DNA of 44,900 nucleotides from the IMG/VR virus record IMGVR_UViG_3300042691_033228, positions 1 to 44,900 of that record; one strand, 5' to 3'. Of this stretch, positions 7,080-37,735 are shown in pieces. A program made the translations under genes and the position numbers. How positions within the stretch are numbered: the stretch's first letter is position 1; every line of letters begins with the position of its first letter. Below the pieces are notes generated by a model. That model worked only from the letters and a program-made list of their open reading frames with translations. It was not told the origin of the DNA and ran no database searches. This DNA comes from a virus.

Positions 7080-8036
7080 TTAAGTAGGTAATTTTTCACC
7101 ATTTAGGTGAGTTTTTTCATTTTCAATTCTAATCTTAATCTTAGGAGTATAATCATCAGGAAGTTTATTTTCTATACCGACAAACTCACCCATTTCATTA
7201 TCTAATCTCACAACAATTTCTTTCTTCCCAAGATTTAACATAATCTGCCCAACTGTAGACATATTATACATATTTTCTGTTCTATACGGATTTAAAAATG
7301 GATCATCCTTATATTTTTCTTTCAACCTATCGATAACGTCCATATCAGTTTTAGCGTCTTTTAAATGTTCTTTAGCCAATTCCATTCTGGATACAGATGA
7401 TTCTCTTTTTTCACCTTTGGTATACCCCGCACCTTTTTGATATATACCATGATTTGTTCTTACAACTAACTTTGAATCCTTTTTTAATTTTTTTATGATA
7501 GGTGCATGTTTCCTTGTCATTTCAACAACATATATGTTATTATTATCAGAAACAATTGTTTCCCCTTTTAACCCAACATCTTTTTTATCTTCACCAATAT
7601 ATGATACTATAGATCTAATGACTTCTGGAATAGTTTTATAAGTTAACGCCTTTCTTATTTTTCCACCATCCGCAGCAAATTTTTTCTTTGCTGGTTTATC
7701 TTTTTCTTTACCCCCAGTTTTTCTTTCTTTCTCAACACCCTTACCTTCTTTTTCGTCCTCAACAACCAATAAACTCGAATTAACTATTCCGATACCATAT
7801 TCGTTCATACCCTCACTCCAATCAGTGTCAACATCTCTCCAATAAGCAACCTCAACATCATCAATTAGTTCGTGAACCAATTCCATGTTTGCCTTATAAC
7901 CTCTATCTCTATTTTTTGCGAGTACAATAGTATCTTCTAATTTAACTCCTGCAATAGTACATTCATTAATAGAATTTTTAGGGGTTACACCCATTATATT
8001 CTGTATCCTATTTATTTCTTCGTTAATATTTTTCAT
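7080..8036 (-). CDS. Ntn-hydrolase-like protein with prohead tag
   Basis: 318 residues. The core from Cys26 resembles N-terminal-nucleophile hydrolases of the penicillin V acylase / bile salt hydrolase / peptidase C45 type: CTIAGV, then VLAKNRDRGY with Arg43 and Asp44 at the spacing of the catalytic Arg and Asp, then EGMNEYGIGIVNSSLLV. Such enzymes use a Cys exposed by removal of the preceding peptide and cleave amide or peptide bonds. The 25-residue leader starts MKNINEEINRIQ and ends SINE directly before Cys26, matching the [I/L]xE site of T4-type prohead proteases. A Lys/Glu-rich linker near residues 93-120 splits the domain. The substrate is unknown. The start is 2 bp before the end of the window's next upstream intergenic, with the metallopeptidase gene immediately upstream. 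Confidence 0.65.
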   Translation of the reverse strand: MKNINEEINRIQNIMGVTPKNSINECTIAGVKLEDTIVLAKNRDRGYKANMELVHELIDDVEVAYWRDVDTDWSEGMNEYGIGIVNSSLLVVEDEKEGKGVEKERKTGGKEKDKPAKKKFAADGGKIRKALTYKTIPEVIRSIVSYIGEDKKDVGLKGETIVSDNNNIYVVEMTRKHAPIIKKLKKDSKLVVRTNHGIYQKGAGYTKGEKRESSVSRMELAKEHLKDAKTDMDVIDRLKEKYKDDPFLNPYRTENMYNMSTVGQIMLNLGKKEIVVRLDNEMGEFVGIENKLPDDYTPKIKIRIENEKTHLNGEKLPT

Positions 8037-8037
8037 T

Positions 8038-9468
8038 TTATGTTACAGGTACTTTAGAAATTACGTCATCACTATTTATTGTAGTATCTCTTTCACTTTT
8101 CGCTAAGGAATCAAGTTCCTCAATAAATTTACTTAACTTAGGTGTAAAGTTATTTTGTGCCCAACAAACTATTAACTCTTCAAAATTAGTGGTATAAGAT
8201 AAATCTTTATCATTAGGGTTATCTAAATATTTTTTTAAATATTTGGTGAAAATAGAAATACCCATGTCTCCACCTTCTTTTATTTCACCTTTTTCAGATA
8301 AATATGCCCTAAAATTATGTAAGTTAGATAATTTTTCATTCTGATCACACCAATATGTGCTTACCCATCTTGGATCTGAAGCCCAATTAGTTAGTTTAAT
8401 ATAATCTACATTATTTTTTATCAATTCATTTTTACTATCTAAAGGTATTTGTTTTTTACCCAACTCCATTTTTGTACTACCTTTTTTATTGGCGTAATGA
8501 TCGGTTGCTAGTGGATACGCTTTCTTTATCTCTTTTACATCATTTAATTCTAAATTATTTAATATATGTTGTATTTCGTGTACAAAACTATAGTAAGCCT
8601 TTTCATAACTATATTTATCACAATATCTATCCCTATTAACACTTATTGGGTTTGATGATTCCATGTTATAATTTACTCCACTGACAAACTTCCACCCTTT
8701 TATATTTTTTAATGTATATTTATAATGTTTTACTAAAATATCTATATCATAAACATCGGGCCCATCTCCACCAGAAAAAAAGTTAATTACATTATCTACA
8801 ATTTTACTAAACTCATCTCTTTTATCCACATATTGATTTTTATTCATTATTCTATCTTTAAACTCATCTGTGGATAAATAATTTTCCCAGTATTTTACTG
8901 CCTTTTTGAAACTTTTATCTAGATTATTTCTACAAGCAACTTCCGATTCTGGTAATGTTTTAAATTCCATATCAAATAAAGTTTGTTGATCAATTTTACA
9001 ATATTTAATATAAACTTTACATTTTTTAACTATTAAATCTGCAACAGACTTTAACATTTTAGGACCATATCCTGAAGTTTGTCCAACATCCCAACCATCC
9101 TTTTTCATTTTAGTCCATAACTCGTCAACAGTATTTATATCTATTTTATTACCATATGCCCAAATACCTAACGCCTTTGCAGTTATATCACCAAAATCCC
9201 AATCTTTATCTATCTTATAACCTATTTCGATAAGAAAGTCTTGAACTTCACCAGCACCTTCATATGGATTAGGAACTCTATCATCTTTAAGGTAAGAACC
9301 ATCAGCAATTTTATTATAATACCAACATCTTTTACCCTCTATCGACTCAGTAATTAATTTTTTTTCTACAACACTTTCTCGAATAACTCTTTTTATGATA
9401 TTTTTAAGTCGATTGATGTTACCTACCTCTTCTTTTAATATGAAATTAATTTTTTTTCTATTATTCAT
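8038..9468 (-). CDS. Tagged HExxH metallopeptidase, PG-binding-like domain
   Basis: 476 residues from the ATG at 9468, one base after the upstream stop. The N-terminus has three [I/L]xE sites (LKE 11-13, IRE 29-31, ITE 39-41), consistent with stepwise removal of a head-targeting leader. Residues about 72-105 (GEVQDFLIEIGYKIDKDWDF followed by GDITAKALGIW) resemble a peptidoglycan-binding domain. A zinc site SFVHEIQHILNN (HEIQH at 297-301) marks a zincin-type peptidase; the third ligand is not certain. Likely roles are cell-wall or protein cleavage at entry or lysis. It sits in a tagged gene block that ends at a holin-like gene. Confidence 0.65.
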   Translation of the reverse strand: MNNRKKINFILKEEVGNINRLKNIIKRVIRESVVEKKLITESIEGKRCWYYNKIADGSYLKDDRVPNPYEGAGEVQDFLIEIGYKIDKDWDFGDITAKALGIWAYGNKIDINTVDELWTKMKKDGWDVGQTSGYGPKMLKSVADLIVKKCKVYIKYCKIDQQTLFDMEFKTLPESEVACRNNLDKSFKKAVKYWENYLSTDEFKDRIMNKNQYVDKRDEFSKIVDNVINFFSGGDGPDVYDIDILVKHYKYTLKNIKGWKFVSGVNYNMESSNPISVNRDRYCDKYSYEKAYYSFVHEIQHILNNLELNDVKEIKKAYPLATDHYANKKGSTKMELGKKQIPLDSKNELIKNNVDYIKLTNWASDPRWVSTYWCDQNEKLSNLHNFRAYLSEKGEIKEGGDMGISIFTKYLKKYLDNPNDKDLSYTTNFEELIVCWAQNNFTPKLSKFIEELDSLAKSERDTTINSDDVISKVPVT

Positions 9469-9469
9469 C

Positions 9470-9763
9470 TTATTTACAAATTGTGCTTTGTATGGCTGAC
9501 CACCAAGTATCTGATTCATCTACTTCAGAATCACCTGTCATACCATATTCATCTAATTCTTTTCTTATTTCTATAGTTGCCTCTTTCCACATCCGTAACG
9601 GTTTTTTTATCTCATCCCACATTTCAGGATTTTCTTTTATTGTCCCTATGTGATTTTCTAACAATTTAATACCTTCTTCGTAAGTGTCAACACTCATAAT
9701 ATTACAAATATCCTTCTTTTTGGAAGTTTCCTCTTTTAATATTTTTTTTATGAGATATTTCAT
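9470..9763 (-). CDS. Small tagged unknown protein
   Basis: 97 residues starting MKYLIKKILKEETSKKKD, a leader with LKE at 9-11 almost identical to two other genes here (9772 and 36965). The rest is helical and acidic with the pair WDEIKKPLRMWKEA and ends in WWSAIQSTICK. I infer a head-packaged small protein. No family recognised. Confidence 0.6.
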   Translation of the reverse strand: MKYLIKKILKEETSKKKDICNIMSVDTYEEGIKLLENHIGTIKENPEMWDEIKKPLRMWKEATIEIRKELDEYGMTGDSEVDESDTWWSAIQSTICK

Positions 9764-9771
9764 ATGAATAA

Positions 9772-10302
9772 TTATTTTTTATTTATGATATCATTAAGTT
9801 TATCTTTAGATACTTTAATGATTTCTACATGACTTATTGGCCTTAATTGACTCATTTGTTTGGCAGTAGATACTGAATACCTTGATTCGTTTTCAAACCA
9901 CTGACCATCTTTATTAACAAATATTGGATACCAACCATAAGAATAAACTACATACGCTCCATTTTGGTAGTCAGCATGTGTATTACTACCCTTAAATGGT
10001 ATTTTTGCCGTCACTAACTCTCTACCACTACGATTACTAGTCGATACCTTTTTTTTGGTGACATCGGTTCTTACTAGTTCATCATATTCGTCTTTGTAAA
10101 AGTTATCTTTAAATAATTGGTATAATTCAAAAGCCTCTAAACCTGAAAAACCAAAATTTTTATTAATAAATTTAATTACACTAGTATATGAAGTTTTCAT
10201 ATCATAACCTTCATCTTTTAAAGTCTTAATGATATATTTCTCTAATTTTTCTTTTCTATCACCGACTTCCTCTTTTAATATTCTCCTAATAGTATTTTTC
10301 AT
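9772..10302 (-). CDS. Tagged unknown protein with shared helical domain
   Basis: 176 residues. The leader MKNTIRRILKEEVGDRK carries LKE at 9-11. Residues about 20-75 fit a helical pattern found in five other proteins of this window (KFINKNFGFSGLEAFELYQL then LFKDNFYKDEYDEL). The C-terminal half is beta-rich (AYVVYSYGWYPIFVNKDGQW) and unknown. It is the first tagged gene of its block and follows a bidirectional terminator. Likely a virion-packaged protein. Confidence 0.6.
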   Translation of the reverse strand: MKNTIRRILKEEVGDRKEKLEKYIIKTLKDEGYDMKTSYTSVIKFINKNFGFSGLEAFELYQLFKDNFYKDEYDELVRTDVTKKKVSTSNRSGRELVTAKIPFKGSNTHADYQNGAYVVYSYGWYPIFVNKDGQWFENESRYSVSTAKQMSQLRPISHVEIIKVSKDKLNDIINKK

Positions 10303-24026: not shown

Positions 24027-24917
24027 TTATTTAAACATTCCCATTGTACCAAATTTTGTAACATAATTGTCATAACTTTCTATCTCAGTAATTTCATTTT
24101 CCTCAAATGGTAAATCGTCTGAATGAACTTCTTCATATACATCACCATAAGATTTATTTAATACCATATATATTATATCACTATTATTTTCAAAAAAATC
24201 TACTATATTATCATCCGAAAAATGATCTGATATAGATTTTTTAAAATCACCTACACTAAGTAAAGTATACTGAATTTCTTCCAAAATATAATATTGTTCT
24301 CTATCGTACCATTCACCACTACCATCACAATATGAACAAGATACTACCCCATCACCATCACAATCGTTACATGTTTCAGTTCCAGAACCACCACAGTCTT
24401 CACATTCTATTTCTTCCTCTTCATTATCACCTATTTCTATATTTTCTACCCCACTACCATCACAATAACTACATTCTAAACTACCATCACCATCACAATT
24501 GTTACAGGTTTCTACCCCACTACCATCACAATCGTCACATCTTAATGTTACATCCCTAATATCTTCTTTAATTTCATCAGCACAAGTTATATACGTTAAA
24601 GTATATTCCTCACCCGTAGATAGTTTATCCGTTAAAAAATTATCAACGTTTAAATTTATAATATATAAAAAAATTAAATCATTAACTTGTTTATCTTCTA
24701 AATGTAAATCATCATAAAAAAATTTTTTCAATACTTTAAAAGATTTAGTTTGTATCAGTGATTGTTCCAAATAACAATCTTCACAATTTACTCTAGATAA
24801 AAAATAATTTTTTATTTCAGGAAAATTACTAGAAAACAAATTTAAACATTTTCTATAAAAAACATTATCTAAACTAGAATGATTAATATCTTCATTTATT
24901 AAACTTATCAACTTCAT
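24027..24917 (-). CDS. Tagged protein with six DnaJ-type zinc motifs
   Basis: 296 residues. Leader MKLISLINEDINHSS holds INE at 7-9. A helical segment with FFYDDLHLEDKQVNDLIFLY fits the shared domain. From residue 127 to 201 there are six CxxCxGxG motifs at 127, 138, 149 and 172, 183, 194: two triplets spaced 11 residues apart inside each triplet and split by an acidic linker. DnaJ has four such motifs with different spacing. No J-domain (HPD) is present. Zinc binding is near certain; the protein could act as a chaperone-like holdase or bind a partner. The tag suggests packaging in the head. It precedes the cupin-like gene at 24919 in the operon. Confidence 0.75.
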   Translation of the reverse strand: MKLISLINEDINHSSLDNVFYRKCLNLFSSNFPEIKNYFLSRVNCEDCYLEQSLIQTKSFKVLKKFFYDDLHLEDKQVNDLIFLYIINLNVDNFLTDKLSTGEEYTLTYITCADEIKEDIRDVTLRCDDCDGSGVETCNNCDGDGSLECSYCDGSGVENIEIGDNEEEEIECEDCGGSGTETCNDCDGDGVVSCSYCDGSGEWYDREQYYILEEIQYTLLSVGDFKKSISDHFSDDNIVDFFENNSDIIYMVLNKSYGDVYEEVHSDDLPFEENEITEIESYDNYVTKFGTMGMFK

Positions 24918-25180: not shown

Positions 25181-26491
25181 CTATTTCTTTTTACCTTTTA
25201 ATTTATTCATAAAGAAATCAAATACTTGATCAATATTAACTTTTGCTTCAGTTATATGATCATCTGCCCAATCATGACCATTGTTTAAAATGTCATTTAC
25301 TTTATTAGGATCAAATTCTTTAATCATAATATCTAATTGTCTTCTCATTTGAGTTAGGTTACTAAAAAACATATAATTTTCACCTCTTGATTCTTCATTT
25401 AAAGTTTCTCTAACTATCCTATAAAGATCTTTTTCAGTTAATTTTACTCTTTTCATATTTCTATTTTCGTTTACTAAATCATGTTTCGATTTATTATGTA
25501 CAAATTCATGTTCCTTATCGGTAGCACCAAATTTAACTTTACTTAAATCAATTGACTTTAACCAAGATGGTAATTCCACATAATCTATTGCCTTACAATT
25601 ATTATTACCCTTTTCATCATTTGTTAAATACCAATAAATCCAAGTCCATTGTTGTTTAGTGAATTCTTTACCATTATTATTGGTAATTTTATACATATTA
25701 CTACTTTTGTCAAAGGATATTGATGCTTGAAATTTAGTTAACCCTATATCTGGTAAATCAACTTTTAACCCCAAATTACCGTTTCTACTTAATATTTTAC
25801 AAATTAAAACATCTTTACCACCTATTTTTATATTCTCAGAACCGTAATAAGATGGCGCTCTACCACTTCTATTTGATTCTGTTTGTTTAAACACATCAAA
25901 TGCATTAAACTCAGGTATTTCTTTTTCTTTTTGTTTAACATTTAACTTTAAAGTAAATGCTGCCTGTTGTCCTGGTATTGGGTATAAATTAACGTCTCTT
26001 TTCTCATCAATTACACCTCCAGTATCCATTATTCTAGCGTATACATTTGAGGTAGCACCTTGAGATGGGAATGCTTTAAGTATCGCATCTTTCAACGCAT
26101 TACCCCTACTAGTCGCATAACCTAAATTCTTATCTCTATTTTTTTCACCAGACAATTCTTTATCTGATTTACCAACTTTTTCTATTTTAAAAGGGTCACT
26201 AGCATTAGTATTTTTAAAATCTGCATTCATTGGACCGTTTAGGTAATTACTTGCCCCACCATAAACATTAACCAACATAACGCCAGTAACTTCTAATCCT
26301 TTCTTATCTAAATCAGTTTTAATTTTTTGTATCGCATTATTTATCGCAACTTCACTCTTAGTTACATCAAAAGTAATAAATCCTTTTACATAATGTTCAT
26401 TAGGTTTGTCTTCCGCTGGTATCGAATTTATTATCGGTTTAGAAAAATCTAAAGCCTCACCTATTAAAAATCTCCTAAATATTTTATCCAT
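25181..26491 (-). CDS. Tagged protein with a second internal tag
   Basis: 436 residues. The leader MDKIFRRFLIGEALDF has IGE at 10-12 followed by Ala, a close match to a prohead cleavage site. The main body (about 30-330) is beta-rich and unknown. At residue 346 a Met opens a second tag-like stretch, MKRVKLTEKDLYRIVRETL, with LTE (351-353) and LNE (364-366). After it, MFFSNLTQMRRQLDIMIKEF and NNGHDWADDHITEAKVNIDQ match a helical protein that I recall as stand-alone in marine phages. So the gene looks like a fusion of two tagged proteins, cut apart by the head protease, or has an internal start at 25456. Confidence 0.65.
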   Translation of the reverse strand: MDKIFRRFLIGEALDFSKPIINSIPAEDKPNEHYVKGFITFDVTKSEVAINNAIQKIKTDLDKKGLEVTGVMLVNVYGGASNYLNGPMNADFKNTNASDPFKIEKVGKSDKELSGEKNRDKNLGYATSRGNALKDAILKAFPSQGATSNVYARIMDTGGVIDEKRDVNLYPIPGQQAAFTLKLNVKQKEKEIPEFNAFDVFKQTESNRSGRAPSYYGSENIKIGGKDVLICKILSRNGNLGLKVDLPDIGLTKFQASISFDKSSNMYKITNNNGKEFTKQQWTWIYWYLTNDEKGNNNCKAIDYVELPSWLKSIDLSKVKFGATDKEHEFVHNKSKHDLVNENRNMKRVKLTEKDLYRIVRETLNEESRGENYMFFSNLTQMRRQLDIMIKEFDPNKVNDILNNGHDWADDHITEAKVNIDQVFDFFMNKLKGKKK

Positions 26492-27294: not shown

Positions 27295-28872
27295 TTACCA
27301 CCAAGTGCCACCACCTGATAATCCTAATTGTTTTGCATATCTAGGTAATCTACAACTCCAGTAACCTGCACTACATTTATCATTTTTTTGTGGGCAATTA
27401 TGTCTATCAGAGAATGCCTTTCTCGCTTTAGGGTCTCTTAACTTAACTGCCAACGCTCCACCACCTGATTTTGCACCAAATGATATCTTTCTAACGTTCC
27501 CATTACACATAACATAAACGTAGAATTTTTTTGATCCACCTCTTTTAGGTTTACTAAGTTCTACTTTTTTACCCCTATATTCTGCCTCATTTAAATCGTA
27601 ATATTCATTTGGTATGTCTAACCAAACTAATTTACCTTCATATATACCTTGTTTACCAATGTCAGTTTTAATTATTTCTAAATCATTATATGATAAATCT
27701 ACTTTACCTTTTTCATATAAATCTCTAACTTCATTGATTAGATTAAAAAATGATTCACTACCATATCTATAAACAGTCTCAGTTAAAGGAATTTGATTAT
27801 CTACATGATATTTTAAACCTTCACTAATGATAGTTCTACTTTCAGTTAATAACATTCTATCGTAGTTTAGTGATTCATTCTTTTTAGATTTATACCCTTT
27901 TATTTTAATTGGACTCGGAGATTGACCTTTACCTGATTTACCATCAGTTTTTTCTCTTTCTCTTTTACGTCTACAAGCCGAATCCTTTGCAGATTGACTC
28001 ATATTTGCAGCAACACTCTTTGCCCTACAAACAGGGTAACCACCTTTATCAGAATCACCTCTACCACATTCAGGATGTCCTCCACCCTCTTTTTTTCTAC
28101 ATATATTAACCCAAGGTCCTTGTGGTTGTTTACTACCTTTACCTTTTTTCTTAGTACCAAACCATACCGCCAAATCCTCATGTATTTTTATATCATGAAA
28201 CGAATCTAAATCTTGTGCCATTTCTGGTGACCAAGATTCATTGGCTTTACCAGAACAGTAACTACCACTACATCTTTTATTACCATCTAAACCAGCAATT
28301 TCACCTTTACATACCTGAACTGCATGTCCATTAGCGTATGCTGACGGATAAACATCGTACTTAGATTTTGCAGAACTTATACCTCTAGCACATAGTTTAT
28401 TTTTCTTTTTCTTCCTACCTTCAGTTAAGTTTTCTGCATCTTCTTCATTTTCTTCTTCTTTATGGCTTGATGGCATGATAGAAATATCATATTTATTTAA
28501 TATCTTTTCTAACGCAATTGGTATTGCCATAGACACCGCACCCATACTCATAACCGCAACTATTTTTGCAATATCTTTAGACTGGGATTTTAAGAATTTT
28601 ATATCTCTTTCAGAAACTTCTTTCTTTGAAAGTAGATTACCTAAAATTTTTACTGCCTCTACAGTCTCCAATTTTTCTCTTTTTGCAATACTAACAAAAT
28701 TTTTCCATGAGTTATACATATCCTCTTTTTTATTTTTAAAAAAAGTTTTTACCTTTTCACCAAGCTCATTAACCATTTTAGGTTCTTCTTCTGAAAATAA
28801 CCCTGTCGATTTACCATCAAACCTCATTTCATTAAACAATCTTTTATATTGTTCTTTATTTAATATCCCCAT
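27295..28872 (-). CDS. Polyprotein-like tagged protein
   Basis: 525 residues with separate modules and [I/L]xE sites between them. 1-148: helical with a hydrophobic segment at about 102-123. LTE at 149-151. 152-330: two Cys-rich modules (CARGISSAKSKYDVYPSAYA and WVNICRKKEGGGHPECGRGD), recurrent in marine phage proteins. LTE 342-344, ISE 349-351, LTE 363-365, INE 379-381, LNE 427-429 followed by Ala. 430-525: KKFYVYVMCNGNVRKISFGA and RHNC plus AGYWSCR, a domain I recall at the end of phage structural or internal head proteins. The start MGILNKEQYKRLFNEM is a variant of the tag. It may be cut into several head proteins. Confidence 0.65.
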   Translation of the reverse strand: MGILNKEQYKRLFNEMRFDGKSTGLFSEEEPKMVNELGEKVKTFFKNKKEDMYNSWKNFVSIAKREKLETVEAVKILGNLLSKKEVSERDIKFLKSQSKDIAKIVAVMSMGAVSMAIPIALEKILNKYDISIMPSSHKEEENEEDAENLTEGRKKKKNKLCARGISSAKSKYDVYPSAYANGHAVQVCKGEIAGLDGNKRCSGSYCSGKANESWSPEMAQDLDSFHDIKIHEDLAVWFGTKKKGKGSKQPQGPWVNICRKKEGGGHPECGRGDSDKGGYPVCRAKSVAANMSQSAKDSACRRKREREKTDGKSGKGQSPSPIKIKGYKSKKNESLNYDRMLLTESRTIISEGLKYHVDNQIPLTETVYRYGSESFFNLINEVRDLYEKGKVDLSYNDLEIIKTDIGKQGIYEGKLVWLDIPNEYYDLNEAEYRGKKVELSKPKRGGSKKFYVYVMCNGNVRKISFGAKSGGGALAVKLRDPKARKAFSDRHNCPQKNDKCSAGYWSCRLPRYAKQLGLSGGGTWW

Positions 28873-36964: not shown

Positions 36965-37735
36965 ATGAGAAAATTAATAAAACAAATATTGAAAGAGGAA
37001 TTATATAAAAATTTAATTACAGAAGGTAAAGGAGATTTTATTGCTAAAACCAAAGATTTAGCACTTAAAAATATGGATACATATAAAATACCTGCCAGTA
37101 TTACTATGGCTCAGGCCGCACTAGAGAGTGGATGGGGTAGAAGTTTATTACCTTCTAAATATAATAATTATTTTGGCGTTAAATGTCACAATGCCTCAAA
37201 TTGTGTATCATTAAAAGATGCGGATGGTAATTTGGCAGAATGGAGGTCTTACGATAGTATTGCCGATTCGTTTGATGATCACGGTAAATTCTTAACTAGT
37301 AATCAAAGATATAGTGAATTATTTAGTTTACCTATCACAGATTACCAATCTTGGGCAGAAGGTTTACAAAGATTAAATTATGCGGGAAATTCTACAACAT
37401 ATGCAGATAAACTAATAAGAACAATTGAGGCTAACGACTTCAATTTATTAGATATGTCAAAAACAAAACAAAAACCTAAAACCCCAAATGTTGTAGGTAA
37501 AAAAGTTTATCCTAAAAAATCTAATGGGTATGTTAACGTAAGAGAAGGGGCTTATGTAGATTCAGGGTTTTTCGACAATTTAATGACTAGGATAGAATAT
37601 CCATCATTAGTGGGTGTAGTTGAAGGTAAAAAATTAGACGATAAATCAAATATGTGGTACTACGTTAGATTAGAAAAACATGTTGATGATTATAGATATG
37701 GTTGGGTTAGGTCAGATGTGGTAGATTTGAAATAA
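36965..37735 (+). CDS. Tagged glucosaminidase (GH73) with SH3-like tail
   Basis: 256 residues. Leader MRKLIKQILKEELYKNLITE holds LKE at 9-11 and ITE at 18-20, so cleavage would release a mature start GKGDF. The GH73-type glucosaminidase domain is at about 24-165, with catalytic Glu54 in TMAQAALESGWGRS and YNNYFGVKC downstream. Residues about 178-255 are SH3b-like (YVNVREGAYVDSGFFDNL). It cuts N-acetylglucosaminyl bonds in peptidoglycan. The prohead-type leader suggests a virion enzyme used at entry rather than the endolysin. It is on the strand opposite to its neighbours. Confidence 0.8.
   Translation: MRKLIKQILKEELYKNLITEGKGDFIAKTKDLALKNMDTYKIPASITMAQAALESGWGRSLLPSKYNNYFGVKCHNASNCVSLKDADGNLAEWRSYDSIADSFDDHGKFLTSNQRYSELFSLPITDYQSWAEGLQRLNYAGNSTTYADKLIRTIEANDFNLLDMSKTKQKPKTPNVVGKKVYPKKSNGYVNVREGAYVDSGFFDNLMTRIEYPSLVGVVEGKKLDDKSNMWYYVRLEKHVDDYRYGWVRSDVVDLK

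Follow-up and report, generated by a model that had tools for sequence, protein, structure and literature searches.

An open reading frame on the minus strand of the window, by which we mean the whole 44.9-kb stretch of viral DNA that was analyzed, encodes a 318-aa cysteine Ntn hydrolase belonging to the IAT/C45/choloylglycine-hydrolase type. A sequence-only reading had placed this frame at 7080-8036, which is correct, and had noted Ser-Ile-Asn-Glu at residues 22-25 followed by Cys26; translation indeed gives S-I-N-E-C at residues 22-26. The features of the gene are given below, with an arrow here and elsewhere marking a cut or boundary.

7080..8036, minus (read from 8036 to 7080): pro-Ntn hydrolase coding sequence, 318 aa, from the ORF translation.
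7962..8036, minus: leader, residues 1-25 (MKNINEEINRIQNIMGVTPKNSINE), of the same module type as the MNLQENIxRIKQMMG leaders that related phages carry on unrelated proteins.
7962..7970, minus: I-N-E (P3-P1), the predicted motif for the prohead protease, which would cut behind Glu25; based on P1/P3 conservation and the T4 gp21 motif.
7959..7961, minus: Cys26, predicted to be the N-terminal nucleophile once the enzyme is mature; invariant, and placed on IAT Cys103 by two of the three MAFFT modes.
7083..7961, minus: mature Ntn-hydrolase domain, residues 26-318; top Foldseek match in the PDB is IAT 2x1c, E 3.8e-10.
7905..7913, minus: Asn42-Arg43-Asp44, with Asn42 and Asp44 on IAT Asn119 and Asp121.
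7449..7457, minus: Thr194-Asn195-His196, with Asn195 on IAT Asn246.
7386..7388, minus: Arg217, on IAT Arg268.

In the AlphaFold2 model of the 318-aa protein (pLDDT 83.6, pTM 0.84), the leader forms a helix at residues 4-14, followed by disorder at 16-22. A Foldseek search against the PDB ranked the precursor and mature forms of IAT first (E 3.8e-10), followed by CV2077, the B. theta choloylglycine hydrolase, NAAA, acid ceramidase, penicillin V acylase (PVA), and proteasome subunits; the fold matches to bile-salt hydrolase, PVA, NAAA, and acid ceramidase had E values of 5e-6 to 8e-4. The structure prediction, a check that could have gone against the sequence-only reading, thus returned an Ntn fold. 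Bile-salt hydrolase itself was rejected as a function, the similarity being at the level of the fold only, with no pointer to a bile-acid substrate.

The catalytic residues of IAT are Cys103, Asn119, Asp121, Asn246, and Arg268 (PMC13044924). These pair with C26, N42, D44, N195, and R217 of the phage protein, all five of which are invariant among its relatives, in agreement with the earlier proposal that Cys26 is the Ntn nucleophile. The Arg43-Asp44 pair and the NSS motif that had been cited in favor of that proposal are both present, but the pair that aligns with the catalytic residues of IAT is N42/D44, and R43 lies opposite a Trp. Identity to IAT is about 19% in the alignment, in which the IAT query sequence agrees with PDB chain 2x1d. 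Asn195 and Arg217 were matched in all three MAFFT modes and the Cys, Asn, and Asp in two, the other mode misplacing the N-terminal part, and an hhalign comparison of A1 with IAT covered the TNH region alone, at low probability. Given this weak hhalign result and the one misplaced mode, it is the fold search that bears the main weight.

Family profiles place the protein near the edge of what is described. Pfam AAT (PF03417) gave a partial match of 23.7 bits at full length and 24.0 bits for the mature form, with a gathering cut-off of 23.2. The NCBIfam model C45_proenzyme matches 44 of 45 relatives of the window protein below E 1; the window protein scores 40.7 bits (E 1.8e-10), short of the curated cut-off of 85 bits, and is therefore a relative of that subfamily rather than a member. 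Neither phmmer nor a profile search of PDB sequences gave an Ntn match, the top matches being unrelated, and the 318-aa protein had no match in PHROGs.

The residue preceding the Cys follows a strict rule. Among 151 distinct relatives it is Glu in 144 and the start Met in the other 7, a pattern that implies, as far as the sequences can tell, a nucleophile at the mature N-terminus. T4 gp21 cleaves after L/I-X-E (PMC9026906), and in the 87 non-redundant leaders P1 is Glu in every case, compared with 0-24% Glu at P2-P15, while P3 is Leu or Ile in 95%, compared with 0-43% at other positions, and P2 varies freely; such a motif is beyond chance. The shortest leaders have 4 residues, and others are whole domains fused upstream (L049 has 334 aa there and L058 has 97); even in these fused forms the junction is still L/I-x-E↓C. 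On a tree of 94 representatives, the class of leader must have changed 23 times, and a minimum of three switches between Glu-Cys and Met-Cys is required.

Must a phage protease be involved at all? Related cysteine Ntn enzymes usually self-cleave, and PurF propeptides end in Glu-Glu ahead of the Cys, other species having a similar Met-Cys alternative. The main rival explanation, because PurF propeptides come off autocatalytically (PMC7056826), is that the leader is self-cleaved by the Ntn enzyme, as in PurF and in IAT, which cuts itself at Gly102-Cys103 (PMC2692852); the Glu would then serve that reaction, with the phage protease uninvolved. Self-cleavage requires no targeting, and so would suit the 38 of 151 relatives in which the leader is just 4-5 aa (M-[LI]-x-E or one residue longer), a length that does not suffice for targeting of the T4 type and that speaks against it in those relatives. 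However, Leu/Ile at P3 with a free P2 is the gp21 rule and runs contrary to self-cleavage, and the L/I-x-E boundary also lies ahead of the capsid body and of non-Ntn cargo, both of which are without Ntn chemistry. The PurF propeptide is not known to have Leu or Ile at P3. We therefore regard self-cleavage as unlikely, and favor a cut by the prohead protease.

The distribution of the family and the gene content of its carriers are consistent with a prohead protease. Up to 449 relatives were found in viral contigs in one scan, two cultured phages, Chryseobacterium phages MA9V-1 and MA9V-2, have the gene, and a conserved-stretch scan of 84,980 prokaryote species genomes found none; none was found in plasmids. 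For the window phage, we infer a host from its relatives alone. The gene for the S77 protease is absent from the window, itself a genome fragment, and is present in 12/14 and 8/14 large enzyme-carrying records, the rest of which may be fragments. These large carriers have a head module of the T4 type. In one of them (G001), a terminase-like gene is followed by portal-like, S77 protease, scaffold-like, and major capsid genes, of which the terminase, portal, and scaffold were identified by eye; the G001 capsid protein matches the phrog major head protein at 9.6e-67, and a relative of that protein in G002 matches T4 gp23 at 9e-27.

Major capsid proteins from 11 records carry L/I-x-E directly ahead of the capsid body (for instance LINE↓A, LVSE↓A, LLDE↓A, LISE↓A, LLKE↓G, and LLNE↓S), at a cut site that is predicted, since it was placed from motif and position. 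In T4 gp23, cleavage falls in a comparable position class. The prohead-protease site that the sequence-only reading had proposed ahead of Cys26 is thus supported, with the motif conserved family-wide and recurring in the major capsid protein, and with S77 in most large carrier records. The S77 protease of MA9V-2 (L097:16979-20602) is annotated as 1207 aa, versus frames of 199-268 aa in most other carriers.

Leaders of this kind are found on many other proteins. In G001, 35 of 342 non-Ntn genes match the leader regex in their first 30 residues, versus 3.0 expected (shuffles gave a mean of 4.3 and a maximum of 12), and in the window the count is 8 of 71, versus 1.6 expected. The excess recurs in G005, G010, G016, and G018, and MA9V-2 has no excess of regex leaders. 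The leader type of the window, M-x-x-x-E-x-I-x-RI-x-x-MMG, occurs on 22 distinct ORFs, mostly unrelated to the enzyme, and usually precedes L/I/V-x-E. Leader types vary between genomes, and when leader similarity was compared across 33 loci, the own-locus excess was modest (p 0.007). Leader-tagged genes in the window include the following.

8038..9519, minus: leader-tagged cargo candidate adjoining the enzyme gene; it has an HExxH motif (VHEIQHIL) and matches no family.
9470..9763, minus: leader-tagged small protein (MKYLIKKILKEE), from the leader regex.
9772..10302, minus: leader-tagged protein (MKNTIRRILKEE), from the leader regex.
36965..37735, plus: leader-tagged glucosaminidase (MRKLIKQILKEELYKNLITE↓G), Pfam PF01832, E 1.6e-33.

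The product of 8038..9519 keeps its LITE↓SIEGKRCWYY boundary in the L104 relative despite a different leader, and it is possible that it is a second packaged hydrolase. Since the glucosaminidase has a leader, a cell-wall enzyme may also be head cargo. In a non-Ntn family marked by DLxxWFG, P1 is Glu in 17/17 genuine members (19 regex matches, two of them outside the family), with varied leaders, one of only 4 residues (MIHE↓D). The DLxxWFG domain starts directly after L/I/M-x-E in the window (27295-28872, minus) and in L049, L055, and L380, with L049 having it as a fusion with the Ntn hydrolase. This family serves as a control outside Ntn chemistry.

A few further observations concern leader-like starts. 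At 25181-26491 (minus), a leader-like stretch (MKRVKLTEKDLYRIVRETLNEE) is internal to the reading frame, as would be seen if another leader-tagged protein had been fused downstream. The ORF at 24027-24917 (minus) has repeated CxxCxGxG-like (DnaJ-type) zinc motifs after a short MKLISLINE leader. The G005 record (L400-L413) has many genome-wide paralogues starting MEKExLKRIFEFLEEKEG.

One can envision that the leader has some other purpose, such as another compartment or partner, and is removed by a different Glu-specific protease; that leader types differ by genome, and that MA9V-2 has no excess of the leader type, would fit with this. Nevertheless, the motif is that of the capsid protein in the same genomes, and both the leader lengths and the boundary are like those of T4 head cargo. 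We consider such an explanation very improbable.

Not all relatives have a leader. The Met-Cys starters (L078, L205, L206, L213, L218, L241, and L321), which are the 7 non-redundant relatives remaining beyond the 87 with a leader, have at least three origins, and some are in genomes that retain S77 and leader-tagged proteins. Activation is therefore not always coupled to the head, and the Met-Cys versions are probably cytoplasmic. These leaderless forms might be taken to mean that the family as a whole acts in the cytoplasm of infected cells, with the leader and the Glu as relics and packaging unimportant. Relics would decay, yet P1 and P3 have stayed fixed across about 23 leader-class changes, and we find this explanation scarcely credible.

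We therefore think it likely that the window protein is a head-packaged proenzyme, activated by a gp21-type (S77) prohead-protease cut at E25↓C26. In T4, the internal proteins have a capsid targeting sequence (CTS) of 10-19 aa that targets the prohead core, the propeptide of Alt is 7 aa, head cargo is ejected, and a CTS-fused enzyme is processed and active within heads (PMC9026906). We imagine that the 25-residue leader, one of several interchangeable modules, probably directs the proenzyme to the prohead core in a manner like that of the CTS. During head maturation, the S77 protease would cleave S-I-N-E↓C, taking off the leader and freeing the nucleophile. The mature enzyme would be functional only with Cys26 at its N-terminus, and its activation would be expected only inside the virion. 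Because the leader ends exactly at the protease site, head assembly probably both packs and activates the enzyme. The active enzyme would remain in the head with the DNA and be ejected into the cell. Our best guess for its activity in the newly infected cell is hydrolysis or transfer of an acyl-amide group; the gene neighborhood has no conserved partner among carriers, and thus gives no clue to the substrate.

More generally, and with somewhat less assurance, we favor the idea that capsid maturation serves as an activation switch, such that the virion delivers a pre-activated hydrolase while the producing cell is spared, and that such a switch is widespread among large phages of the T4-like kind, of which at least some infect Bacteroidota. 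Prohead proteases remodel heads and free packaged proteins; if our proposal is correct, the cut itself would give a cargo enzyme its catalytic residue, tying virus assembly to enzyme activation. It would also explain how a phage holds a host-modifying enzyme silent until delivery. In the open-licence literature, we found no report of a phage head containing an Ntn hydrolase; protease-cut leaders on head cargo and Ntn hydrolases are each known, and their joining, with capsid maturation as the means of activation, is a prediction that we did not find there. The sequence rule of leader, L/I-x-E, and domain provides a way of finding head cargo in large, mostly uncharacterized phages from sequence.

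How does this compare with known systems? The likeness to IAT (AAT, C45) lies in the Ntn fold, where it is the top structural match, and in the same five catalytic residues. IAT, however, has a 102-residue alpha subunit and cleaves itself between Gly and Cys, whereas the phage enzyme has a short interchangeable leader ending in L/I-x-E; moreover, the phage family is without a cellular relative in the conserved-stretch scan. Bile-salt hydrolase, PVA, NAAA, and acid ceramidase are also cysteine Ntn hydrolases, but they are cellular and become active through loss of the Met or by cleaving themselves. PurF resembles the phage enzyme in its short propeptide before an N-terminal Cys and differs in being self-cleaving and in its unrelated substrate domain. 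With the T4 internal proteins and Alt, the likeness is of another kind, a short N-terminal leader ending in L/I-x-E that is common to unrelated proteins, together with a gp21-type protease, here found in related genomes. The cut in T4 frees cargo; in the phage enzyme, if it is packaged as we suppose, the cut would also create the catalytic residue.
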